55,804 bases of DNA from the NCBI GenBank assembly GCA_902517895.1, contig CABYEA010000009.1, positions 1 through 55,804 on the forward strand, given 5' to 3'. Positions 8,811 to 42,048 of the stretch are shown one piece after another. This stretch comes from an uncultured Bacteroidota bacterium (GTDB lineage Bacteria > Bacteroidota > Bacteroidia > Flavobacteriales > Flavobacteriaceae). Under the pieces are notes generated by a model. It had not been told where the DNA came from. It saw nothing but the letters and a program-made list of their open reading frames with translations, and made no database searches. The translations under genes were made by a program, and so were the position numbers. Positions within the stretch are counted from its first letter, which is position 1. Each line of letters opens with the position of its first letter.

Positions 8811-11800
8811 ATGGGATTAAAAAAAATATTTAGGCTAATTTTTGTTGCAATGTTGTTCTTGAGTTTTCAGAACATTTTAGCCCAATTCAGCAAAACACAT
8901 TACATACCACCTATTTCTGGTGACGGAGGAGCTCAAATTCAATATATTTATGTTTCTACTCCAAATGAAGATGAATTTAATGTTAGTATAACACCCATTG
9001 GTGGTCTAACTGAGCAATTTACTGTTTCAAACTCTGCTCCTCTAGAGTATTATGTTGGAAATGGGGAACAAACTAATTTTTTTACACAATCATCGGACTC
9101 AGGTCAAATATTAAATAATAAAGGTTACATAATTGAAGGGGATAATTTGGTGTATGTTTCCGTAAGATTATTTGGCGGACCAAGTTGGGCATATTATCAA
9201 GGGGGTCAATTAGTTAGTAAAGGTTTATCAGCACTGGGTCAAATCTTTAGAATTGGAACTTTTCAAAATGAAAGTACATTTGTTGATGGCGACTCAATGC
9301 TAAATTTTATCTCTGTTTTAGCTACACAAGATAATACCTCAGTAAACTTTTCAAATTTTGGAAATGGTGTAACATTTGTAAACGATCAAGAACCAGGGAA
9401 TATAATCTTAAATAACGGAGAAAGTTACGTTGTATCGATAAAACCAACTAATTCAAATTTAAATAATATTAATGGTTTAATTGGGGTTTTGGTTGAAGCC
9501 GACAAACCAATAGCTGTGAATTCAGGGTCATTTAATGGCTCAAATGCAAATTCAAGTGAAGGTCATAATGGCCAAGATGCTGGAATTGACATGCTAGTTC
9601 CCATAGAAAGAGTTGGAAGCGAATATATATTTGTTCGAGGAGTCGGAGCTAGTCAAATTGAACGACCGCTTATAGTTGCACACGAAGAAAATACTGATAT
9701 TTATGTAAATGGTATTCTAGAATACACTATTGCTCAGGCAGGAGAATATTGGTCTATTCCGTCTAGTTTATATGGTGTAACCTATGATCTATACACCAGT
9801 AATGGGCCAGCTACTAATGAATCTTATAACATGTATGTAGAAACCTCTAAACCAGTTTTTGCCTATCAATTTATTGGTGGATTCAGACCAGGAAATGGTG
9901 GAACGCAAGGAATACCCAATCAAGGAATGTTTTTTGTACCCTCAATTAATTGTAAAACTCCAAGAATTGTGAATAATATTCCTGAGGTCAATAAAATTGG
10001 ACAAGATTATTCTTTTGAAGGAGTAGTTACAATAGTTACCGAGTCAGGATCTGATGTATTAATTACTGAAAATGGTATAACCCAAAACATATTAGGTTAT
10101 GGAGTTGTACCTTCTGCTGTGTATGGAGGTGCATTTGAAACTTATACCTTAGAGGGATTAACAGGAAATATCTCCGTTGAATCTTCATCTCAAGTATATG
10201 TTGCGACTTTTGGAGCTTATGAGTATGCAACATTTGGTGGATATTATTCTGGTTTTGAACTAAAACCTGAAATTATTCTAGAAGGAGTAAATAACGAGGA
10301 CAATTTATGTATTCCAAACTTAAATTTGAGTTTAAGTAGTATATCAACTTATGACCAATTTCAATGGTATTATAATAATACCGCTATCGATGGGGCTAAT
10401 TTGAATAATTATTCGCCAACTGAGCCAGGCTATTATCAAATTTCAGGTTTCATTGATGGATGCGATGGATCGCTTCTATCTAATAATATTCCTGTAAGCG
10501 ATTGCCCTAACGATTATGATGGAGATGGAGTAAATGATAACATCGATATTGATAATGATAATGATGGAATTCCAAATTGTGATGAGTCATTAGGAAATCA
10601 AAGTTTACTAATTGTTGAAAACGGTGGTACTTTAGACAATATGGGTGACTACACTTTCAGCTTAACAGAAAGCCCAAATTCAACTGATAACAGTAACTGG
10701 ACTGGTTTTGTAGGAGGTTTTACAGTGACAACTGACGCCTCATACGTCGATGGAGATTTTAATGATCAACCTGGTTTTACAAAAACCATTGTAACATTTG
10801 AAAATGAGGTTAGTTTAGAGTTTAGCTATAATAACACACTTGATACATCCTACAACATGAACAATAATGAATGGTTCGCAATTGTTGTTCCATTTGACAA
10901 AACAATTACATTACTAGATCCTAACGACGAATTATTAATTGATTCAAATTTTGATGGAATATTTGAAGCTGGTATCACAGAAATTTCAAACTTTAATATA
11001 AGATATAAAGTCAAAGACGAAAACCTAAATCAAGGGACATTTAGCTTCAAAACTCATCTCACAGAAAGCTTCGAGTTTGAGCATTATAATGAGGGCAGTG
11101 AAACAGATAGTGTTATCATTAATATTATAGCTACTTGTGTTCCAATCGATAGTGACAATGATGGAATTGTGGATTCAAAAGATTTTGATAGTGATAATGA
11201 CGGAATCATAGACATAATTGAAGCTGCTGGAAATAATTATGTACCAATTTCAAATATTGATGAAAATAATAACGGATATGATGATGTTTTTGAAAATGAT
11301 TTTACACCTCAAGATTTTGATGAAGACGGGGTTTTTGATTATTTAGATTTAGATTCAGATAATGACGGAATTTTTGATTTACATGAATCTGGCGCTTTAG
11401 ATTTTGTTCAAGACATTAATTTAGATGGTACTATTGATGAAATTAATGTTGGAACAAATGGATTAGAAAACTCATTAGAAAATATTATTGATTCAGGAAT
11501 TTTAAATTTCATAATAATTGATTCAAATGGAGACGGATTCTTTAATTATATCGATTTAGATTCAGATTCCGATGGGTGTTTAGATGTTGTTGAAGCTGGA
11601 TTTAATGACGAAAATGATGATGGTATTCTGGGTAATGAACCAATATCAACTAACCCTAATAATGGAATTGTTATTAGCGCTTCAACTGGATATGATTTAC
11701 CCATTAACGATGACTTTATCACAAATGCTCCAATCACAATTGATGTGCAGCCAGAATCTGAAATTATTATTTGTGAAGATGATTCTGTTCAAATAATAAT

Positions 11801-35573: not shown

Positions 35574-36191
35574 CTACTTATGGTCTTTGAAAAAAATCTG
35601 ATTTTCAACTGATTCCCAGAGCAATAGGCATGCGATCGAATTGTAAGGTGACCAATTTTTGGTCAATTTTTCAATTTCATCTTTTCCCACCGACTGTAAA
35701 TGGTAATTTTTCTTTATGCTGTTAATCAGTGCCAAATCCTTAGGAGAAAAAATATTTTCTCTAAATAAATTAAATATCAAAAACATCTGAGCTGTCCACT
35801 CTCCAATTCCTTTGATTGACACCAAACAATCAATAACCTCTTTGTTGGACATTTTATTAAAGTCAATAGTTTTAGATTTAAAAAAATAAAAAACATTTTT
35901 AATGTATTCTGCTTTTCGGAAAGAAATCCCGATGGATTGAAGATCAGAATTTGACATATTCATTATTTCTGATTCAGATTTTTTATTAACTATTTTTGCA
36001 AATCTATTCTTAACAGTTATAGCTGCTTTAAAACTTATTTGTTGTTCAATTATAAGATTTGCAATAGAAATGGCATAATTTGAATTATATCTGTTACACC
36101 AATCAATTTCATTACCAAACTTATCGATAAGATAGTACATAACTTTATCATTTGACAAATGATTGTATGCCAATTCAATTGTACTTTTCAT
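35574..36191 (-). CDS. DNA-3-methyladenine glycosylase (AlkA-like, HhH-GPD)
   Basis: A 205-residue base-excision repair glycosylase. The helix-hairpin-helix is at about 123-142 (LVSIKGIGEWTAQMFLIF) and the catalytic aspartate is D152 in FSPKDLALINS, matching the FPxxDLGL pattern of AlkA. It removes alkylated bases such as 3-methyladenine. The length equals the short, single-domain AlkA of many bacteria. It is separated from tuf by the tuf promoter and from the upstream membrane-protein gene by 7 nt, so those two are probably cotranscribed. Confidence 0.88.
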   Translation of the reverse strand: MKSTIELAYNHLSNDKVMYYLIDKFGNEIDWCNRYNSNYAISIANLIIEQQISFKAAITVKNRFAKIVNKKSESEIMNMSNSDLQSIGISFRKAEYIKNVFYFFKSKTIDFNKMSNKEVIDCLVSIKGIGEWTAQMFLIFNLFRENIFSPKDLALINSIKKNYHLQSVGKDEIEKLTKNWSPYNSIACLLLWESVENQIFFKDHK

Positions 36192-36198
36192 CTGAATA

Positions 36199-37059
36199 TT
36201 AATAATTTTCTTCAGCTAGTTTGTAGATTCTGAGAATGATTAAACCAAAAACTACTCCAAGAATTAGTAATAAAATACTGTATAGTCCTTCTGCGCCAAA
36301 AGAAAGTCTCAGTAAAATTGTTGAAATAATAAACCCTGTATTTCTTATTAATTGAGAATATCTCTCAGTATACTGGAAGGAAATCAATAATATAAATACA
36401 TCGACTAGGATAAGAATTGTAAAAAAGTCTACAAAGAAAACACCATTCAGATTTTGTGTGTAAGATTCTGATATAAATACTTGAATTATCCAATCATAAA
36501 AATTGACGAAACATAAAACCAACAGAGTTGGTACTAGTAAAATTGACATAAGCTTTTTGTAACTTATAAACTTATTTAAATTTTTATTCGTTTTACGCTT
36601 TGGTGTATTAACCCATGTTTTTTTGAATAGATGTATCAGATAAAAGATAACTATTACAGCAAGCAAATCATATATTAACTGCAAATTATTAGCATTTAAA
36701 ATATTTGAATTATCTAAACTGATTTCTGGAATATCTTTGAATATTTTTCTGATTAGGACCAGAGAAATAATTTCATATTCTTTTGCCACAGATGTGGTAA
36801 AAGATCTTGGCAGATAATGGATTAATAAAAATGCCTCATAAACCAGTATGAATGTAAAGGGTGTATATAGGGCAGATATGGGGTTACTTGATAAATTTGT
36901 TTTAGATGAGAATATATCTACACCATAATAGTATTCAAAAAATATCAAAAGCAGATGAACTATAAAACCACCAACTGCTAAAAACATAATGTTTTTCTCA
37001 AATAGTTCTACATTTTTCTGAGAAAAAATATTAGAATGTAAAGTTTCAATTCTATCCAT
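36199..37059 (-). CDS. Integral membrane protein of unknown function (286 aa)
   Basis: I do not recognise this protein. It has about seven hydrophobic stretches (near residues 24-45, 64-84, 130-146, 172-192, 208-228, 240-256 and 262-278) with short loops and a Lys-rich loop around 150-160 (KRKTNKNLNKF), so a cytoplasmic positive patch. No enzyme motif is visible. The 59-nt gap to the upstream lipoprotein gene and the same direction allow an operon with it and the AlkA-like gene. It lies in the 5.2-kb stretch that separates tuf from its usual tRNA neighbours. Confidence 0.6.
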   Translation of the reverse strand: MDRIETLHSNIFSQKNVELFEKNIMFLAVGGFIVHLLLIFFEYYYGVDIFSSKTNLSSNPISALYTPFTFILVYEAFLLIHYLPRSFTTSVAKEYEIISLVLIRKIFKDIPEISLDNSNILNANNLQLIYDLLAVIVIFYLIHLFKKTWVNTPKRKTNKNLNKFISYKKLMSILLVPTLLVLCFVNFYDWIIQVFISESYTQNLNGVFFVDFFTILILVDVFILLISFQYTERYSQLIRNTGFIISTILLRLSFGAEGLYSILLLILGVVFGLIILRIYKLAEENY

Positions 37060-37118
37060 AATGAGACACTAACAATATTTGTGCCGTTATGAATAGAGTT
37101 AAACTTAAATTATTATAA

Positions 37119-37874
37119 CTAAAGTACTGGTACTCCGTTAGAAATGGTAGAAATTGGAGCTACCATATAAATATCCTTTTTGTATACATTAGTGTTGCTA
37201 TCACCTTCAAAACCAGTCCAAAGTTCAGATAGTAAATAATCATCAATTGCTGATCTAGATGTAAAATAATAAACACCACCATATATATTACCGTCTGTAC
37301 TATTAATCATAGTCTTACCAATCATACCAGGAAAATTTTCATTGCTGAAAACCGGAGCATATTCTTTCACTTGACTTGACATTTCTTCGTCAGTTGGATT
37401 AACCTCATTAGAATAATTTACAACAAGGATGTGAAGTCCTGATGAATCATCTGGATTAGAGGATGTTTTTCTCATGGAATGATTTCCATTTGCTAATTCA
37501 GTACCATCAAATGTTTTAAAAACATCAGTTTTGAAGTTTACTAAATTTGGATGTGCGACCACTCCTTTCCATAATTCTGATTCTAAATAAACATCAACAT
37601 CTTTCTGATTTGAGAAATAATATACACCTCCAAAGATTTCCGTCTCTAAATTTCCTACAAATGACTTTCCAAGTAGACCTGGTACATTTTCAGACGTAAA
37701 GCTTGGAGCAACAGCGCTGCCCAATTCGGCATGCTCTTCTAAAGTCATATTTTCAAGTTGATAATTTACAATTAATACCGTTTCATCTGCATAAATTGAG
37801 GTTTGGTCATTTGTATTTGAGTTTTTACAACCCATTAGAATGATAAGAAAGGAGAATATTAAAAATTTTTTCAT
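37119..37874 (-). CDS. Lipoprotein with two YdhR-like ferredoxin-fold domains
   Basis: A 251-residue protein with a lipoprotein signal (FSFLIILMGCKNS, Cys at residue 16). It contains two copies of a domain of about 90 residues (about 28-115 and 147-236), each with L(I)VNY, PGL/MLGK(S/T), (F/Y)GGVYYF and YL.SELW. This pattern resembles the YdhR family of dimeric alpha+beta barrel proteins, which form one barrel from two subunits; the tandem copy here would form an internal pseudo-dimer at the membrane surface. YdhR is annotated as a putative monooxygenase, but no activity is assured here. It is divergent from a flavodoxin-fold quinone reductase gene 134 nt away. Confidence 0.65.
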   Translation of the reverse strand: MKKFLIFSFLIILMGCKNSNTNDQTSIYADETVLIVNYQLENMTLEEHAELGSAVAPSFTSENVPGLLGKSFVGNLETEIFGGVYYFSNQKDVDVYLESELWKGVVAHPNLVNFKTDVFKTFDGTELANGNHSMRKTSSNPDDSSGLHILVVNYSNEVNPTDEEMSSQVKEYAPVFSNENFPGMIGKTMINSTDGNIYGGVYYFTSRSAIDDYLLSELWTGFEGDSNTNVYKKDIYMVAPISTISNGVPVL

Positions 37875-38008
37875 TGATTTTAATTTTAAATAATTATTGA
37901 TTGTTCAATTTAAAATGAATTTATCAAATAACAAAGTAAGTTTAAAAATTAAGGTAAATATTTTTATAGTGGCACATGATTTGATATCTGAGATGAAAAA
38001 GTAGTTAG

Positions 38009-38623
38009 ATGAAAAACTTAATCATTGTCGGACACCCTTATAAGAAATCCTTTTGTTACAATGGAATATTTAAAACAATTTTCAACGAGATAAATAAGTC
38101 TGGCCAAGACTTAAAGGTGATTGATCTATATAGAGATAGTTTTTCTAGACCTCGAACAAAACTGATTGAAAAATATAAAAACTTAGTGATTTGGAGTGAA
38201 AGAATATATGTCATTTCTCCCGTATGGTGGTTTAGATTAACCCCAAGAATGGAGGTTTTCTTCGATGAAGTACTCACTCCAGGTTTTGCATACAAGTTTG
38301 TAAATGTAACAAAGACATATGCATATCCAAAACCATTTCTAAAAGACAAAAAAGTACGTACTTATATTACTCATGGGGCACCAGCTCTACCTGTAAAAAC
38401 TCTTTATTTTAATTCTGTCAAATTAAGGCTTGTTATGGGTGTTTATTCATTTGTATTTGGATGGAAATTATCGCTTTGGTTTAGGACCAAGCAATTCTGG
38501 TCAGTTCCATTTGTAAGTGATAAAAAGAGAAAAAAATATCTTAGAGTTGTACTAAACGATATTCAAAATGATCTTAGGACCAAAAATATTTTCAAACCTA
38601 AACCAGCTATGCAAAATAATTGA
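38009..38623 (+). CDS. NAD(P)H-dependent flavodoxin-fold oxidoreductase (quinone reductase-like)
   Basis: A 204-residue protein with MKNLIIVGHPYKKSFCYNG (FMN/FAD phosphate loop), VIDLYRDSF, ISPVWWFRLTPRMEVFFDEVLTPGFAY and THGAPALP, the signature of the MdaB/KefF/NQO1 flavodoxin-like group. It would reduce quinones or similar acceptors with NAD(P)H in the cytosol. It is the first gene of a plus-strand run: the DoxX-like gene starts 2 nt after its stop, followed by two small membrane-protein genes. Confidence 0.8.
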   Translation: MKNLIIVGHPYKKSFCYNGIFKTIFNEINKSGQDLKVIDLYRDSFSRPRTKLIEKYKNLVIWSERIYVISPVWWFRLTPRMEVFFDEVLTPGFAYKFVNVTKTYAYPKPFLKDKKVRTYITHGAPALPVKTLYFNSVKLRLVMGVYSFVFGWKLSLWFRTKQFWSVPFVSDKKRKKYLRVVLNDIQNDLRTKNIFKPKPAMQNN

Positions 38624-38625
38624 TT

Positions 38626-39042
38626 ATGTTAAAAAGATTTGATACAAACGATTATTTAATCAGAATTCCACTGTTTATTATTTTTTTCTGGTTTGGAATT
38701 TTAAAAGTTCTTGATGTTTCCCCTGCAACCGAGCTTATCATTGATACTGTTTTTTGGATGCCTTTTTTATCTGCTAAAACCTGGTCAATTGTTATTGGAT
38801 ACTGGGAAATGGCAATCGGTATTTGTTTCTTAAATAAAAAAACCACTCTTGCAGCTGTTGTACTAATGTTTTTACAAATGGCTGGAACTTTTTTGCCATT
38901 AATAATTTTACCAAATATTACTTTTCAAGATGGCAACCCTCTTCTGCCAACATTAGAGGGTCAATACATAATAAAAAATATAATAATCATTACTGCTGCC
39001 CTTATAATTGGCAGGAGTTATCTTAAAATTAAATTTAAATGA
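38626..39042 (+). CDS. DoxX-like membrane protein (138 aa)
   Basis: A 138-residue protein with four predicted membrane helices. The pattern IPLFIIFFWFGILKV...SPATELI and FLQMAGTFLPLIIL...TLEGQYIIKNI fits the DoxX/YkgB-like family of quinone-linked membrane proteins. The ATG at 38626 (MLKRFDT) is used; an in-frame TTG at 38620 overlaps the previous stop. Its stop overlaps the next start by 4 nt (ATGA), so it is coupled to the small membrane gene. Pairing with an NAD(P)H:quinone reductase supports a role in quinone or redox balance, but that is inference. Confidence 0.7.
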   Translation: MLKRFDTNDYLIRIPLFIIFFWFGILKVLDVSPATELIIDTVFWMPFLSAKTWSIVIGYWEMAIGICFLNKKTTLAAVVLMFLQMAGTFLPLIILPNITFQDGNPLLPTLEGQYIIKNIIIITAALIIGRSYLKIKFK

Positions 39043-39224
39043 AAAAAATAATAGAAGTTTATTACCCCGTAATTTTAGCATTTTTATGTCTTCTTTACTC
39101 TGTTGGACTAGGGTTGACTGGCAATACCGCAGAAGCTCAATATACAGCTCATTGGCCTGGAACAATTTTACTATTTGCAATAGCAATTAGACAAAGAAGA
39201 AGAGATTATAACTCAAAAAAATAA
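39039..39224 (+). CDS. Small membrane protein (61 aa)
   Basis: A 61-residue protein with two hydrophobic stretches (about 8-26 and 41-50) and a basic C-terminal tail (RQRRRDYNSKK). I do not recognise the family. The start overlaps the DoxX-like stop by 4 nt and the next small gene starts 3 nt after its stop, which argues for a real coupled gene. Confidence 0.6.
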   Translation: MKKIIEVYYPVILAFLCLLYSVGLGLTGNTAEAQYTAHWPGTILLFAIAIRQRRRDYNSKK

Positions 39225-39227
39225 GAT

Positions 39228-39416
39228 ATGTTAAGCCCATTAATGTTTATAATTGGATTTATTATATTCCTTCTTTACATGTCTGGATTACTTTGGATGA
39301 TTAAATCTTCACACGATGATCAAAGAAGAAGAAGAGAAAGAGACGAAAGGTTTAGCAAATCTGATGAAAATGACTACGATGGTGGGGGCAATTGGGGTAG
39401 ATTTGATAATGAATAG
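39228..39416 (+). CDS. Small single-span membrane protein with an acidic tail (62 aa)
   Basis: A 62-residue protein with one N-terminal helix (LMFIIGFIIFLLYMSGLLWM), then a highly charged stretch (QRRRRERDERF) and an Asp/Gly-rich end (DYDGGGNWGRFDNE). No family recognised. The last base of its TAG stop (39416) is the first base of a decayed tRNA-Thr fragment, so the gene end may have been set by an integration event. It is the last gene of the plus-strand run that begins with the quinone reductase. Confidence 0.55.
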   Translation: MLSPLMFIIGFIIFLLYMSGLLWMIKSSHDDQRRRRERDERFSKSDENDYDGGGNWGRFDNE

Positions 39417-39459
39417 AGTCAATTTCGGAAATTGAACCCAGGACTTCTTCCTTACCAAG
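39416..39459 (-). repeat. Degenerate copy of the tRNA-Thr(GGT) 3' half (older attachment-site scar)
   Basis: These 44 nt match the 3' half of the intact tRNA-Thr(GGT) gene (discriminator side to anticodon loop) at 36 of 44 positions. The T-loop TTCAATT and the anticodon-loop side (CTTGGTAAGGAAG-like) are kept, while the T-stem has changes that break pairing. No 5' half is present, so it is not a tRNA gene. It reads as an old integration scar. It lies 56 nt from the exact copy at 39515-39558. Confidence 0.75.
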
Positions 39460-39514
39460 TAAAAGCTTTTAGATGGAAAATATAATTTTTTTGGTTTTTT
39501 TATACAATTTGAAT

Positions 39515-39558
39515 TGAGCCAATGCCGAGAATTGAACTCGGGACCTCTTCCTTACCAA
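39515..39558 (-). repeat. Exact 44-nt copy of the tRNA-Thr(GGT) 3' half (attachment-site copy)
   Basis: Identical to 40637-40680, the region from just past the discriminator through the T arm and variable region into the anticodon loop of tRNA-Thr(GGT). The next base differs (A instead of G at 39559) and similarity then fades within a few bases. A direct repeat that starts in the anticodon loop and runs to the 3' end of a tRNA is the classic att duplication left by a tyrosine integrase. The 1.1 kb between the two copies holds one gene. Confidence 0.85.
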
Positions 39559-39636
39559 AGAAGATATAAGGATATAAATGAAAATATTTCAAGGGAAAAG
39601 TTCAACTGTTTAATATCTTATGCTGGTTTATTTAAT

Positions 39637-40542
39637 TTATAAAAGTTTTGATAAAATATTTATCCAAACATCTTCGTATAGTATATTACCTATTCCTTCA
39701 CCGTGAAATGGATTTCTAACTTTGTTGTTGCGTTTACGTTTTTCTAAAGCAAGCATAAAAATGTTTTCTTTAGGAATTTTCATATTCAAATAAGTCTGGT
39801 GGATAGGAATGGCCATAATCTCATTTGTGTGAAAAATACCGTACCATTTATGTGCAGGGGTTAAACTTTCATTTGAATACCAGTTTGCAATTATTTTTTC
39901 TGCGTTTTTATTTGCATAATCTTTATTTTTTGGAGATTTTGACCAATCCCATCCACCAGAAAAACTAATAACGCCACCTACATTATGATTTTTAGCAATC
40001 ATACAAGCCATACCTCCTCCTTGCGATTGACCAGCTACAACTATATTTGACCAATTAATTTTATTCTGAATTAGATATTTTTCCCAACCATCTTTTGGCT
40101 TATTAGTCTTGAGGTAAACTAAAAGATCCTTAAATCTGGTGTAGATTGCGTCTTTTGGCAAATCTGTAATTAAATTTGAGATATTGTGTCCATATATTCT
40201 TTTTAATCGAAATTTTTCTGCACAATTCTCATCTAAAAATAGATTTTCATTAATACAAGTTGTTGAAATGCCTGGAGTTGAAATCACTGATAGAAATATT
40301 ACTCTATACCCAAGATTTAAAGCTGTTTTTAAAAAAAGTGATTTTTTTGGTTTTCCAGATGTCCCAGGCAAAAATAAAATTAGTTTATTATTTTCTTTTT
40401 TATCATACTGAATTAAATGTGGGTTATTAAACTTATCGATGCTTGAATCAATTTCTGAAGGCCTAACACTAAGCTCTGTTAAATTATAATTTTGAGAAAA
40501 AGAAACAAGTGGAATAAATAGTAATAGTATTAGCTTTATCAT
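39637..40542 (-). CDS. Secreted alpha/beta hydrolase (BPSS1187-like)
   Basis: A 301-residue protein with a signal peptide (MIKLILLLFIPLVSFSQ). Features of an alpha/beta hydrolase are LILFLPGTSGKP (oxyanion side), the nucleophile elbow GQSQGGG with S173, and a C-terminal NPFHGEG with a candidate catalytic histidine. The region CAEKFRLKRIYG and the spacing resemble the BPSS1187-like hydrolase family, whose substrates are unknown. It is the only gene between tRNA-Thr(GGT) and an exact copy of that tRNA's 3' half, so it looks like cargo of a small mobile unit. Possible roles include ester hydrolysis in the periplasm. Confidence 0.7.
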   Translation of the reverse strand: MIKLILLLFIPLVSFSQNYNLTELSVRPSEIDSSIDKFNNPHLIQYDKKENNKLILFLPGTSGKPKKSLFLKTALNLGYRVIFLSVISTPGISTTCINENLFLDENCAEKFRLKRIYGHNISNLITDLPKDAIYTRFKDLLVYLKTNKPKDGWEKYLIQNKINWSNIVVAGQSQGGGMACMIAKNHNVGGVISFSGGWDWSKSPKNKDYANKNAEKIIANWYSNESLTPAHKWYGIFHTNEIMAIPIHQTYLNMKIPKENIFMLALEKRKRNNKVRNPFHGEGIGNILYEDVWINILSKLL

Positions 40543-40575
40543 TCAAGAAAAATACAAAAAAAAACGCCACTTTAC

Positions 40576-40595
40576 ATTTGACCTAAATTTGACCT
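40576..40595. repeat. Two direct 9-bp repeats with 11-bp period beside tRNA-Thr
   Basis: ATTTGACCT occurs at 40576-40584 and again at 40587-40595, one helical turn apart, in the 96-nt gap between the hydrolase gene and the tRNA-Thr(GGT) 3' end. Such phased direct repeats can be binding sites for a regulator of the hydrolase gene or arm-type sites of an integrase next to its core site. Neither is proven. Confidence 0.4.
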
Positions 40596-40638
40596 TTAAT
40601 TAAGAAAAAAGATAGTTGAAAATGGCTATTAACAGATG

Positions 40639-40710
40639 AGCCAATGCCGAGAATTGAACTCGGGACCTCTTCCTTACCAAGGAAGCGCTCTACCACTGAG
40701 CTACACCGGC
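40639..40710 (-). tRNA. tRNA-Thr (anticodon GGT)
   Basis: A 72-nt gene on the minus strand with acceptor GCCGGTG/CATTGGC (two G-U pairs), anticodon stem CTTCC/GGAAG with loop TTGGTAA (GGT), and T-loop TTCAATT. CCA is not encoded. Its 3' half is the repeat unit found again at 39515-39558 and, degraded, at 39416-39459. The T-stem sequence and discriminator are part of that repeat, so an incoming element would have rebuilt the 3' end. Confidence 0.95.
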
Positions 40711-41093: not shown

Positions 41094-41984
41094 CTAGCTC
41101 TTATTTCGTGGATGAGATTTCCTGAAAACTTTTTTAATTTCTTCAATGGATCTATTAGTATATACCTGGGTAGCTGCAAGACTCGTATGTCCCAATAAAT
41201 CTTTTACAGAATTCAGATCTGCACCATTATTTAGAAGATGAGTGGCAAAAGAGTGTCTTAAAATGTGTGGGCTCTTTTTAATCTTGGTTGAAAAACCAGA
41301 AAAATATTTTTTAGTGATTCTGTAGACTAAATTATCATATATTTTTTTTCCCTTGGATGTTAAAAAAAGTGAATCATTGCTTTTTATATTTTTAAGTTTA
41401 TTTCTGTAAACCAAATATTTTTTTATTGATACTAGAGTAGACTCAATCAGCGGAATATATCTCTCCTTATTTCTTTTTCCCAACACCTTAATTCTTGTGT
41501 TTGAATAATCAATATTTTGAATTTTTAGATCGATTAACTCTTGTCTTCTGATTCCCGTTGTGTACAATAGTTCTAATACAAGATAATCTCTAAACCCTTC
41601 AAAAGAGTTTTTAAAATTTTTAGAATTTAAAACATTTAAAATTTCATTTTCAGAGAATGGTAATTGAATCGTTGATTTTGTTCTTAATGCCTTATGCTCA
41701 TTTAAAGGATTTATACTAATATCTCCAGTTTTGAGTAAAAACTTGTAATAACTATTTAGGGAGGATATTTTTCGGTTTATTGAACTATTTGATATTTTAT
41801 TACCCACAAGTGATACGATCCATGACCTAATTTGAGAATAATTAGCTTTTTTAATACCTTTTTGATCAAACTTATCTTGGTTAAAATCATAAAAAGTATT
41901 TAAGTCCTTTTTGTAAGCAATAATAGTCTTGTTAGAGTAATTTTTCTCTAATAGTAAGTAGTCAAGAAATGATTTGAATTCCAT
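41094..41984 (-). CDS. xerC: Tyrosine recombinase, XerC/XerD type
   Basis: A 296-residue tyrosine recombinase with an N-terminal SAM-like core-binding domain (about 1-90) and a catalytic domain with complete active-site residues: TTGIRRQEL (Arg), SPHILRHSFATHLL (H-x-x-R), LLGHTSLAATQVYTN (His and the nucleophile Tyr). It sits between rpsU and the tRNA-Thr array, the usual place of the housekeeping Xer gene of Bacteroidota, which resolves chromosome dimers at dif. The neighbouring tRNA-Thr scars raise the question of whether this enzyme or a lost integrase made them; gene position favours the housekeeping role. ATG at 41984 is used; TTG at 41996 would add four residues. Confidence 0.85.
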   Translation of the reverse strand: MEFKSFLDYLLLEKNYSNKTIIAYKKDLNTFYDFNQDKFDQKGIKKANYSQIRSWIVSLVGNKISNSSINRKISSLNSYYKFLLKTGDISINPLNEHKALRTKSTIQLPFSENEILNVLNSKNFKNSFEGFRDYLVLELLYTTGIRRQELIDLKIQNIDYSNTRIKVLGKRNKERYIPLIESTLVSIKKYLVYRNKLKNIKSNDSLFLTSKGKKIYDNLVYRITKKYFSGFSTKIKKSPHILRHSFATHLLNNGADLNSVKDLLGHTSLAATQVYTNRSIEEIKKVFRKSHPRNKS

Positions 41985-42048
41985 ACCTAAAAACAAATAT
42001 AAATTTAATAATTATTAGTAAGTATGTTTGAAATTTTGGAAATATAGG

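Follow-up and report, generated by a model that had tools for sequence, protein, structure and literature searches.

Downstream of its gene for tRNA-Thr(GGT), the genome of an uncultured bacterium of the family Flavobacteriaceae carries two partial copies of that gene, which raises the question whether mobile elements have been inserted at this site one after another or the copies are a product of local duplication, and, if elements were inserted, what they carried and which enzyme moved them. The locus lies in a stretch of 55,804 nt (the whole of the analysed DNA, hereafter the window; its genome is called G000), within a tRNA cluster that also includes tRNA-Gly, tRNA-Tyr and tRNA-Thr(TGT); its features are collected in Table 1. 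A first-pass annotation, made from the sequence alone, had claimed that the 3' half of the tRNA recurs once exactly and once with 8 changes, in the orientation of the tRNA and starting near the anticodon loop. The alignments bear this out: 40637-40680 agrees with the nearer copy at 44 of 44 positions (48 of 49 if the comparison is stretched to 39563), and the farther copy differs from 40638-40681 at 8 of 44 positions, in a register one base off that of the 44-mer, in which 35 of 44 positions agree. Both copies, henceforth scars, are oriented as the tRNA and lose identity just beyond its 7-nt anticodon loop. Neither is a chance match, because the next-best match in the window, and the only other one with at least 27 of 44 positions on either strand, is tRNA-Thr(TGT) with 30 of 44, and the top score in 20 base-shuffled windows, of which one strand was scored, is 26 of 44.

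Table 1. Features of the tRNA-Thr(GGT) integration locus (window coordinates)
Feature	Position	Strand	Remarks
Resident genus block	35574..39416		seven genes, from tuf to the integration site
Older, decayed scar	39416..39459	-	overlaps the stop codon of the last resident gene
Residue of an earlier element	39460..39514		55 nt; no recognisable gene, no class A or B end
Younger scar	39515..39558	-	matches the tRNA 3' half exactly; moved here by the cassette
Left cassette end	39559..39608	-	about 50 nt; common to G018, G011, G004 and G019
Cargo gene	39637..40542	-	301 aa, predicted secreted alpha/beta-hydrolase-like protein; PF02230, E 0.0022, below the curated cut-off
16-bp core GATAAAGCTAATACTA	40525..40540	-	at the cargo-gene start; one change from GAAAAAGCTAATACTA
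Right cassette end, class A	40543..40636	-	between cargo gene and tRNA 3' end; common to G011 and G019, altered in G020 and the inner G018 end
Direct repeats AGGTCAAAT	40587-40595 and 40576-40584	-	spaced 11 bp apart; putative arm-type sites of an integrase
tRNA-Thr(GGT), integration target	40638..40710	-	3' half toward lower coordinates
xerC-type recombinase gene	41094..41996	-	backbone, outside the cassette

In the loci compared, no other tRNA of the cluster has comparable copies. With up to 3 mismatches, the genome itself (1.26 Mb, 68% complete, 41 contigs) contains no copy beyond the scar and the tRNA. In 20 loci fetched from related genomes and in the window, no partial copies of tRNA-Tyr or tRNA-Thr(TGT) were found, and the partial matches of tRNA-Gly and tRNA-Trp are 18-24-nt stretches common to these two; a single 43-nt match of tRNA-Gly, in the outgroup genome G047, lies inside the tRNA cluster, where that genome's own diverged tRNA-Gly is expected.

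The 20 loci were fetched after a search with the tRNA cluster, which was matched in 60 of 60 relatives; 15 come from the same genus, four from other families of the order and one from another genus of the family (G024), and the former together with the window give 16 informative genus loci. The other five of the 21 genus genomes have no usable locus, the cluster being at a contig start in G002 and weak among the matches listed in G008, G010, G012 and G014. In all four outgroup loci (G043, G046, G047, G058) tuf lies 59-67 nt from tRNA-Thr, and the resident block is absent from this site; in the genus loci the block, of about 3-4 kb, separates the two genes, with tuf inside the stretch in 15 of the 16, the window included (the exception is G019). 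The first-pass annotation had advised a search for empty sites and for differing cargo between the repeats, and both are present. Nothing is inserted in the four outgroup loci and in four of the 16 genus loci (G005, G006, G007, G015), where the last resident gene is followed directly by the tRNA. Cargo accompanied by tRNA scars occupies the site in eight (G000, G004, G009, G011, G016, G017, G018, G019), and an ORF without a detectable scar in four (G001, G003, G013, G020), the right end in G020 being class A-like. In G000, G004, G009, G016 and G017 the oldest scar abuts the stop codon of the last resident gene or extends into it, and the scar at 39416 in the window therefore shows where the empty site used to be. 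Several extra genes, in a longer stretch, lie ahead of the outermost scar found in G011, G018 and G019; genes of 1489 and 485/486 aa located between tuf and tRNA-Thr in G011 and G018 (L041, L042) resemble by eye the two subunits of glutamate synthase.

The cargo differs from genome to genome. It comprises a PDDEXK_4 protein matching the candidate defence family PDC-S26 in G017, a kelch protein in G016, a DUF285 protein in G004, and an AIPR protein with an AbiU match plus a TPR protein in G019; the inner element of G009 and the cargo of G011 gave no Pfam match. Two of these genes are phage-defence-like, namely the PDC-S26 candidate (L039:14114-15331) and the AIPR/AbiU-like gene (L038:8056-9258). 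In the window, the 1.1 kb between scar and tRNA hold a single gene, whose N-terminus suggests that the product is secreted; integrase or recombinase, transfer, phage structural and conjugation genes are absent from it. The cargo gene contains a 28-nt inverted repeat (39795-39822 / 39933-39960, 86% complementary).

Among the 21 genus genomes, the hydrolase-like gene was found in G000 and G018 alone, and their cassettes were compared. Up to the gene start, the cassette body is identical at 940 of 941 positions and the left scar at 49 of 49, whereas in local alignments of the flanks identity is only 68% for the glycosylase gene (467 columns), 70% for xerC, 74% for the flavodoxin-like gene and 84% for tuf. 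Therefore, the cassette moved between attachment sites without its flanks, and simple local duplication, which the first-pass annotation had set against its own reading, is no explanation. According to that alternative, the tRNA 3' half was duplicated by slippage or unequal exchange and the intervening gene is an old resident, as the closeness and common orientation of the copies and the four of 16 loci with cargo but no detectable scar might suggest; because some alleles are empty, the cargo varies between genomes, ends are shared and the cassettes resemble each other far more than their flanks do, we regard it as extremely improbable. A further argument comes from G009, where an element bearing a probable recombinase (see below) has swapped the tRNA 3' half for a diverged version, the old half being found as the distal scar, and ARAGORN still detects the tRNA: such an exchange is predicted by integrase-mediated insertion, but not by duplication. 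Serial site-specific integration at tRNA-Thr(GGT) is thus well supported. The succession of at least two elements, the older decayed and the younger exact, stands as first proposed, with the refinement that the younger is a one-gene cassette without integrase and not a large island; of the older event the decayed scar and 55 nt are left.

The G000 and G018 cassettes do differ at the right end, where only 72 of 98 columns agree; the first 38 nt of the gene agree at 37 positions. The switch lies between 40538 and 40565, adjoining the gene start, and is not placed more narrowly because both ends are alike there. This difference bears on two other explanations. One is that the shared cassette is an artefact of assembly or contamination of environmental genomes, cross-contamination being conceivable as two genomes of the genus are recorded as coming from uncultured organisms; yet in both G000 and G018 the cassette lies inside longer contigs with the host's own flanks, and the copies have different right ends. 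We consider an artefact very improbable. The other is homologous recombination through the repeated tRNA halves, the shared ends and the signal-peptide starts, with the scars stemming from one ancient integration. The swap of right ends beside the gene start and the wide repetition of signal-peptide starts fit such exchange, but the 68-84% identity of the flanks of the shared cassette, the breaks of the scars at the anticodon loop, the differing repeat classes at fixed positions and the new tRNA 3' half in G009 do not, and as the origin of the locus it appears unlikely.

Integration by an enzyme is also what the element ends point to. Read outward from the tRNA, the right ends fall into class A with AGGTCAAAT, class B with AGGAYAAAW, class C with TGAACTTATA (G009) and a fourth with TGTCTTTTTA (the element of G365 described below). 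Ten elements were searched, each with its own motif and up to one mismatch; the altered class A ends (G020 and the inner G018 end) and the classless ends (G001, G003, G013 and the first cassette of G019) stood outside this test. In all ten, the motif is repeated 41-43 and/or 52-54 nt from the tRNA, and in eight at both positions (42 and 53 nt in the window); G016 and the inner G009 element have the repeat at 52 nt alone. In G365 the repeat pair recurs 96 and 107 nt from the other end of the element; by the same test, no second pair was found in elements of classes A, B and C. Left-end and right-end types are loosely combined across elements. The direct repeats may serve as arm-type integrase sites. 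In 11 of 12 scars the sequence stops matching the tRNA one or two bases beyond the 7-nt anticodon loop (five bases in the inner G009 scar), which would fit strand exchange there, anticodon loops being used by tyrosine integrases.

We therefore favour, as the likely reading, that 39515-40636 is a non-autonomous one-gene cassette inserted by an integrase at tRNA-Thr(GGT), where an earlier element had been lost, and that it moves in trans. In the scheme that we infer, which extends to the enzyme class, the crossover position, the action in trans and the route from cell to cell, a tyrosine-type integrase would insert the cassette into the 3' half of the tRNA gene, with the crossover most likely in the 7-nt anticodon loop and the arms of the stem acting as inverted core sites. 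The cassette's own 3' half would restore the tRNA, and the old 3' half would be displaced to 39515. The earlier element would have been inserted likewise and then lost, with the decayed scar and 55 nt as its remains. As the cassette has no integrase, it would most likely be moved in trans by the integrases of related elements that target this tRNA and have their ends laid out alike.

Candidates for such an enzyme come from two larger elements at the same tRNA-Thr, one of 4.5 kb in G009 (L046:1843-6316) encoding a protein of 597 aa and one of 5.1 kb in G365 (L098:3416-8478) encoding a protein of 629 aa, both with the end layout of the window cassette. These proteins and a relative in G341 share R and RxTF and, in two of the three, LGH with a Y after it, a pattern that we take to be the tyrosine recombinase motif, and they are probably very divergent tyrosine recombinases. 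They gave no Pfam or PDB match, and the one tested gave no PHROG match; hhalign returned an E of 0.031 with a probability of 1.6%, and structure modelling of the 597-aa protein gave results of too low a quality for use (pLDDT 33.7 and 37.5). A relative was found in two of 397 sampled family genomes, a sample that does not list G009 itself. The G365 element also encodes a protein weakly similar to a rolling-circle replication protein (PF23343, E 0.063). Neither a matching integrase nor a link to an ICE or IME was found for the ends of classes A and B; the related elements that bear a probable recombinase are those of G009 and G365. This lack tells against the favoured reading, as do the weak evidence for the recombinase, the loose combination of end types and the four genus loci with cargo but no detectable scar.

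The genomes also contain other recombinase genes. The gene at 41094-41996 was considered as the cassette integrase and rejected, since it is XerC-type and stands beside the tRNA cluster in the compared genus loci, the empty ones included. A search for PF00589 in the 21 genus genomes found two Xer-like proteins in most, two additional intact proteins (in G009 and G020) and two weak stretches in G000. The G020 protein adjoins tRNA-Asn and the G009 one a 50-nt copy of tRNA-Asn: at L152:12680-13863 the copy of the 3' part (90%) is followed by a 353-aa integrase gene, which makes this a second tRNA with a nested insertion. On contig C1 of G000 (L144:6380-6538 and 9353-9532) there are two C-terminal fragments of the tRNA-Asn integrase, 53 and 60 aa long, which share 98% and 92% identity with the G020 integrase.

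A phage origin of the elements was also considered, and it is not supported by searches of viral contigs. These contain no exact match of the tRNA 3'-half pattern or of the class B pattern, and no relative of the 597-aa recombinase or of the cargo protein; the class A repeat pattern occurs in two of them, L083, which has no tRNA, and L084, where the only tRNA is a tRNA-Met away from the match. Phage and plasmid records hold no relative of the 629-aa protein. The scar has a 36-nt match (91.7%) in Moraxella phage Mcat7, which is too short to be separated from conserved tRNA sequence. Among genome contigs, the class A pattern is found at nine places, two of them in the genus; three of the seven outside were scanned (L085, L089, L092) and have no tRNA, L089 having no similar end either. 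The class B right end has weak partial matches in 20 other genomes of the 397 family genomes, with the class B carriers absent among the matches listed.

Integrase-less elements that are stacked at a single target gene are already known, and this locus is a well-resolved variant. In Streptococcus salivarius, CIMEs (cis-mobilizable elements) and microCIMEs stand in tandem at one target gene, with gene-less remnants farthest from it (PMC7563491). The window cassette likewise keeps its attachment sites, lacks recombination and transfer genes and is part of a stack at the 3' end of a gene, with the 39416 scar as a gene-less remnant in the farthest position. CIMEs, however, derive from conjugative or mobilizable elements (PMC7563491), whereas the window cassette consists of one gene and has the same body in two distant genomes. 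A second parallel is provided by additive flexible genomic islands: those of Methylophilaceae, with 1 to 63 genes, are marked by repeated copies of the final 20 nt of tRNA-Lys (PMC10872708), and tRNA-targeted cassettes are described in Alteromonas (PMC4119200). These share with the locus a conserved tRNA target, recurring tRNA 3' ends and cargo variable from one gene up, and the genus accordingly shows tRNA 3'-end repeats together with empty, scarred and unscarred cargo-bearing loci (4, 8 and 4 of 16); conserved cassette ends or repeats are not described in the passages cited, in contrast to the end classes and fixed spacing found here (PMC10872708, PMC4119200). Tycheposons, as characterized second-hand in PMC10872708, are also islands bordered by tRNA in streamlined aquatic bacteria, but they span 4-200 kb and have a tyrosine recombinase, whereas the window cassette measures 1.1 kb and has none. 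Integrons, as described in PMC4119200, resemble it in that each cassette pairs a single gene with a recombination site and the integrase comes from elsewhere; in the window, however, a tRNA 3' half accompanied by direct repeats takes the part of that site, and no integron integrase was identified. With its single hydrolase-like gene, the window cassette has neither the structural genes of a prophage nor the conjugation genes of an ICE.

The window cassette works like a CIME or an additive-island cassette and is probably moved in trans. Its hosts, uncultured and presumably marine bacteria, have small genomes (incomplete assemblies of 1.0-1.5 Mb), to which single genes are added at one tRNA that is kept intact. 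The locus offers a clear instance of a single gene that has passed from one genome to a distant one while its surroundings stayed in place, and, since the layout of the ends is fixed and their repeats are interchangeable, it can be tested directly which integrase moves cassettes that lack one.

The start of the cargo gene links the cassette to other parts of these genomes. The gene opens with a 38-nt motif (one change), which with up to three mismatches is found, clustered, in 19 of the 21 genus genomes and, outside the genus, in one of 296 genomes (from a sample of 299); a reversed control pattern gave no match in the genus genomes. We surveyed its 16-bp core in 26 stretches, 19 picked for the motif and seven being tRNA-Thr loci, and found 136 occurrences with up to two mismatches and enough flank. 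The 19 (L144-L162) contain arrays of short co-oriented genes split by GAAAAAGCTAATACTA, e.g. L151:4254-11634 and L145:4221-9638, and the cores are co-oriented within each, except for one in L151 past tRNA-Asn that looks like chance; tRNA-Asn is present in ten of the 19. Beyond the core there is mostly a signal peptide, and unrelated sequence at part of the sites. The G000 and G004 cassettes at tRNA-Thr have only the core and the signal-peptide stretch in common with the arrays among the first 120 matches listed, which do not cover G004 in full. No title or abstract on this locus or on the arrays emerged from a literature search whose scope left out most subscription papers.

The arrays are possibly an integron-like system, or they could be a product of homologous exchange between repeated secretion signals. 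A wider and tentative proposal, which we consider doubtful, would join both sites in one economy of cassettes, in which arrays of short co-oriented genes, many of them near tRNA-Asn, with a 16-bp recombination core in the signal-peptide start and an integrase of no recognised integron type, would swap genes with the one-gene cassettes at tRNA-Thr that travel between species. If the link to the arrays were true, it would point to an unrecognised gene-cassette system in uncultured ocean bacteria, and if the two sites acted together, the system would be integron-like, with its recombination site lying inside a secretion signal, and any gene captured there would be secreted at once. Alignments between arrays end within 60 nt of a core in 373 of 916 cases. 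In 200 random placements this number averaged 110 and never rose above 136; the placements ignore gene starts, so that part of the excess could be due to genes beginning at the core. Of 109 cassettes, nine pairs recur between genomes at near-full length, some of them perhaps by descent.
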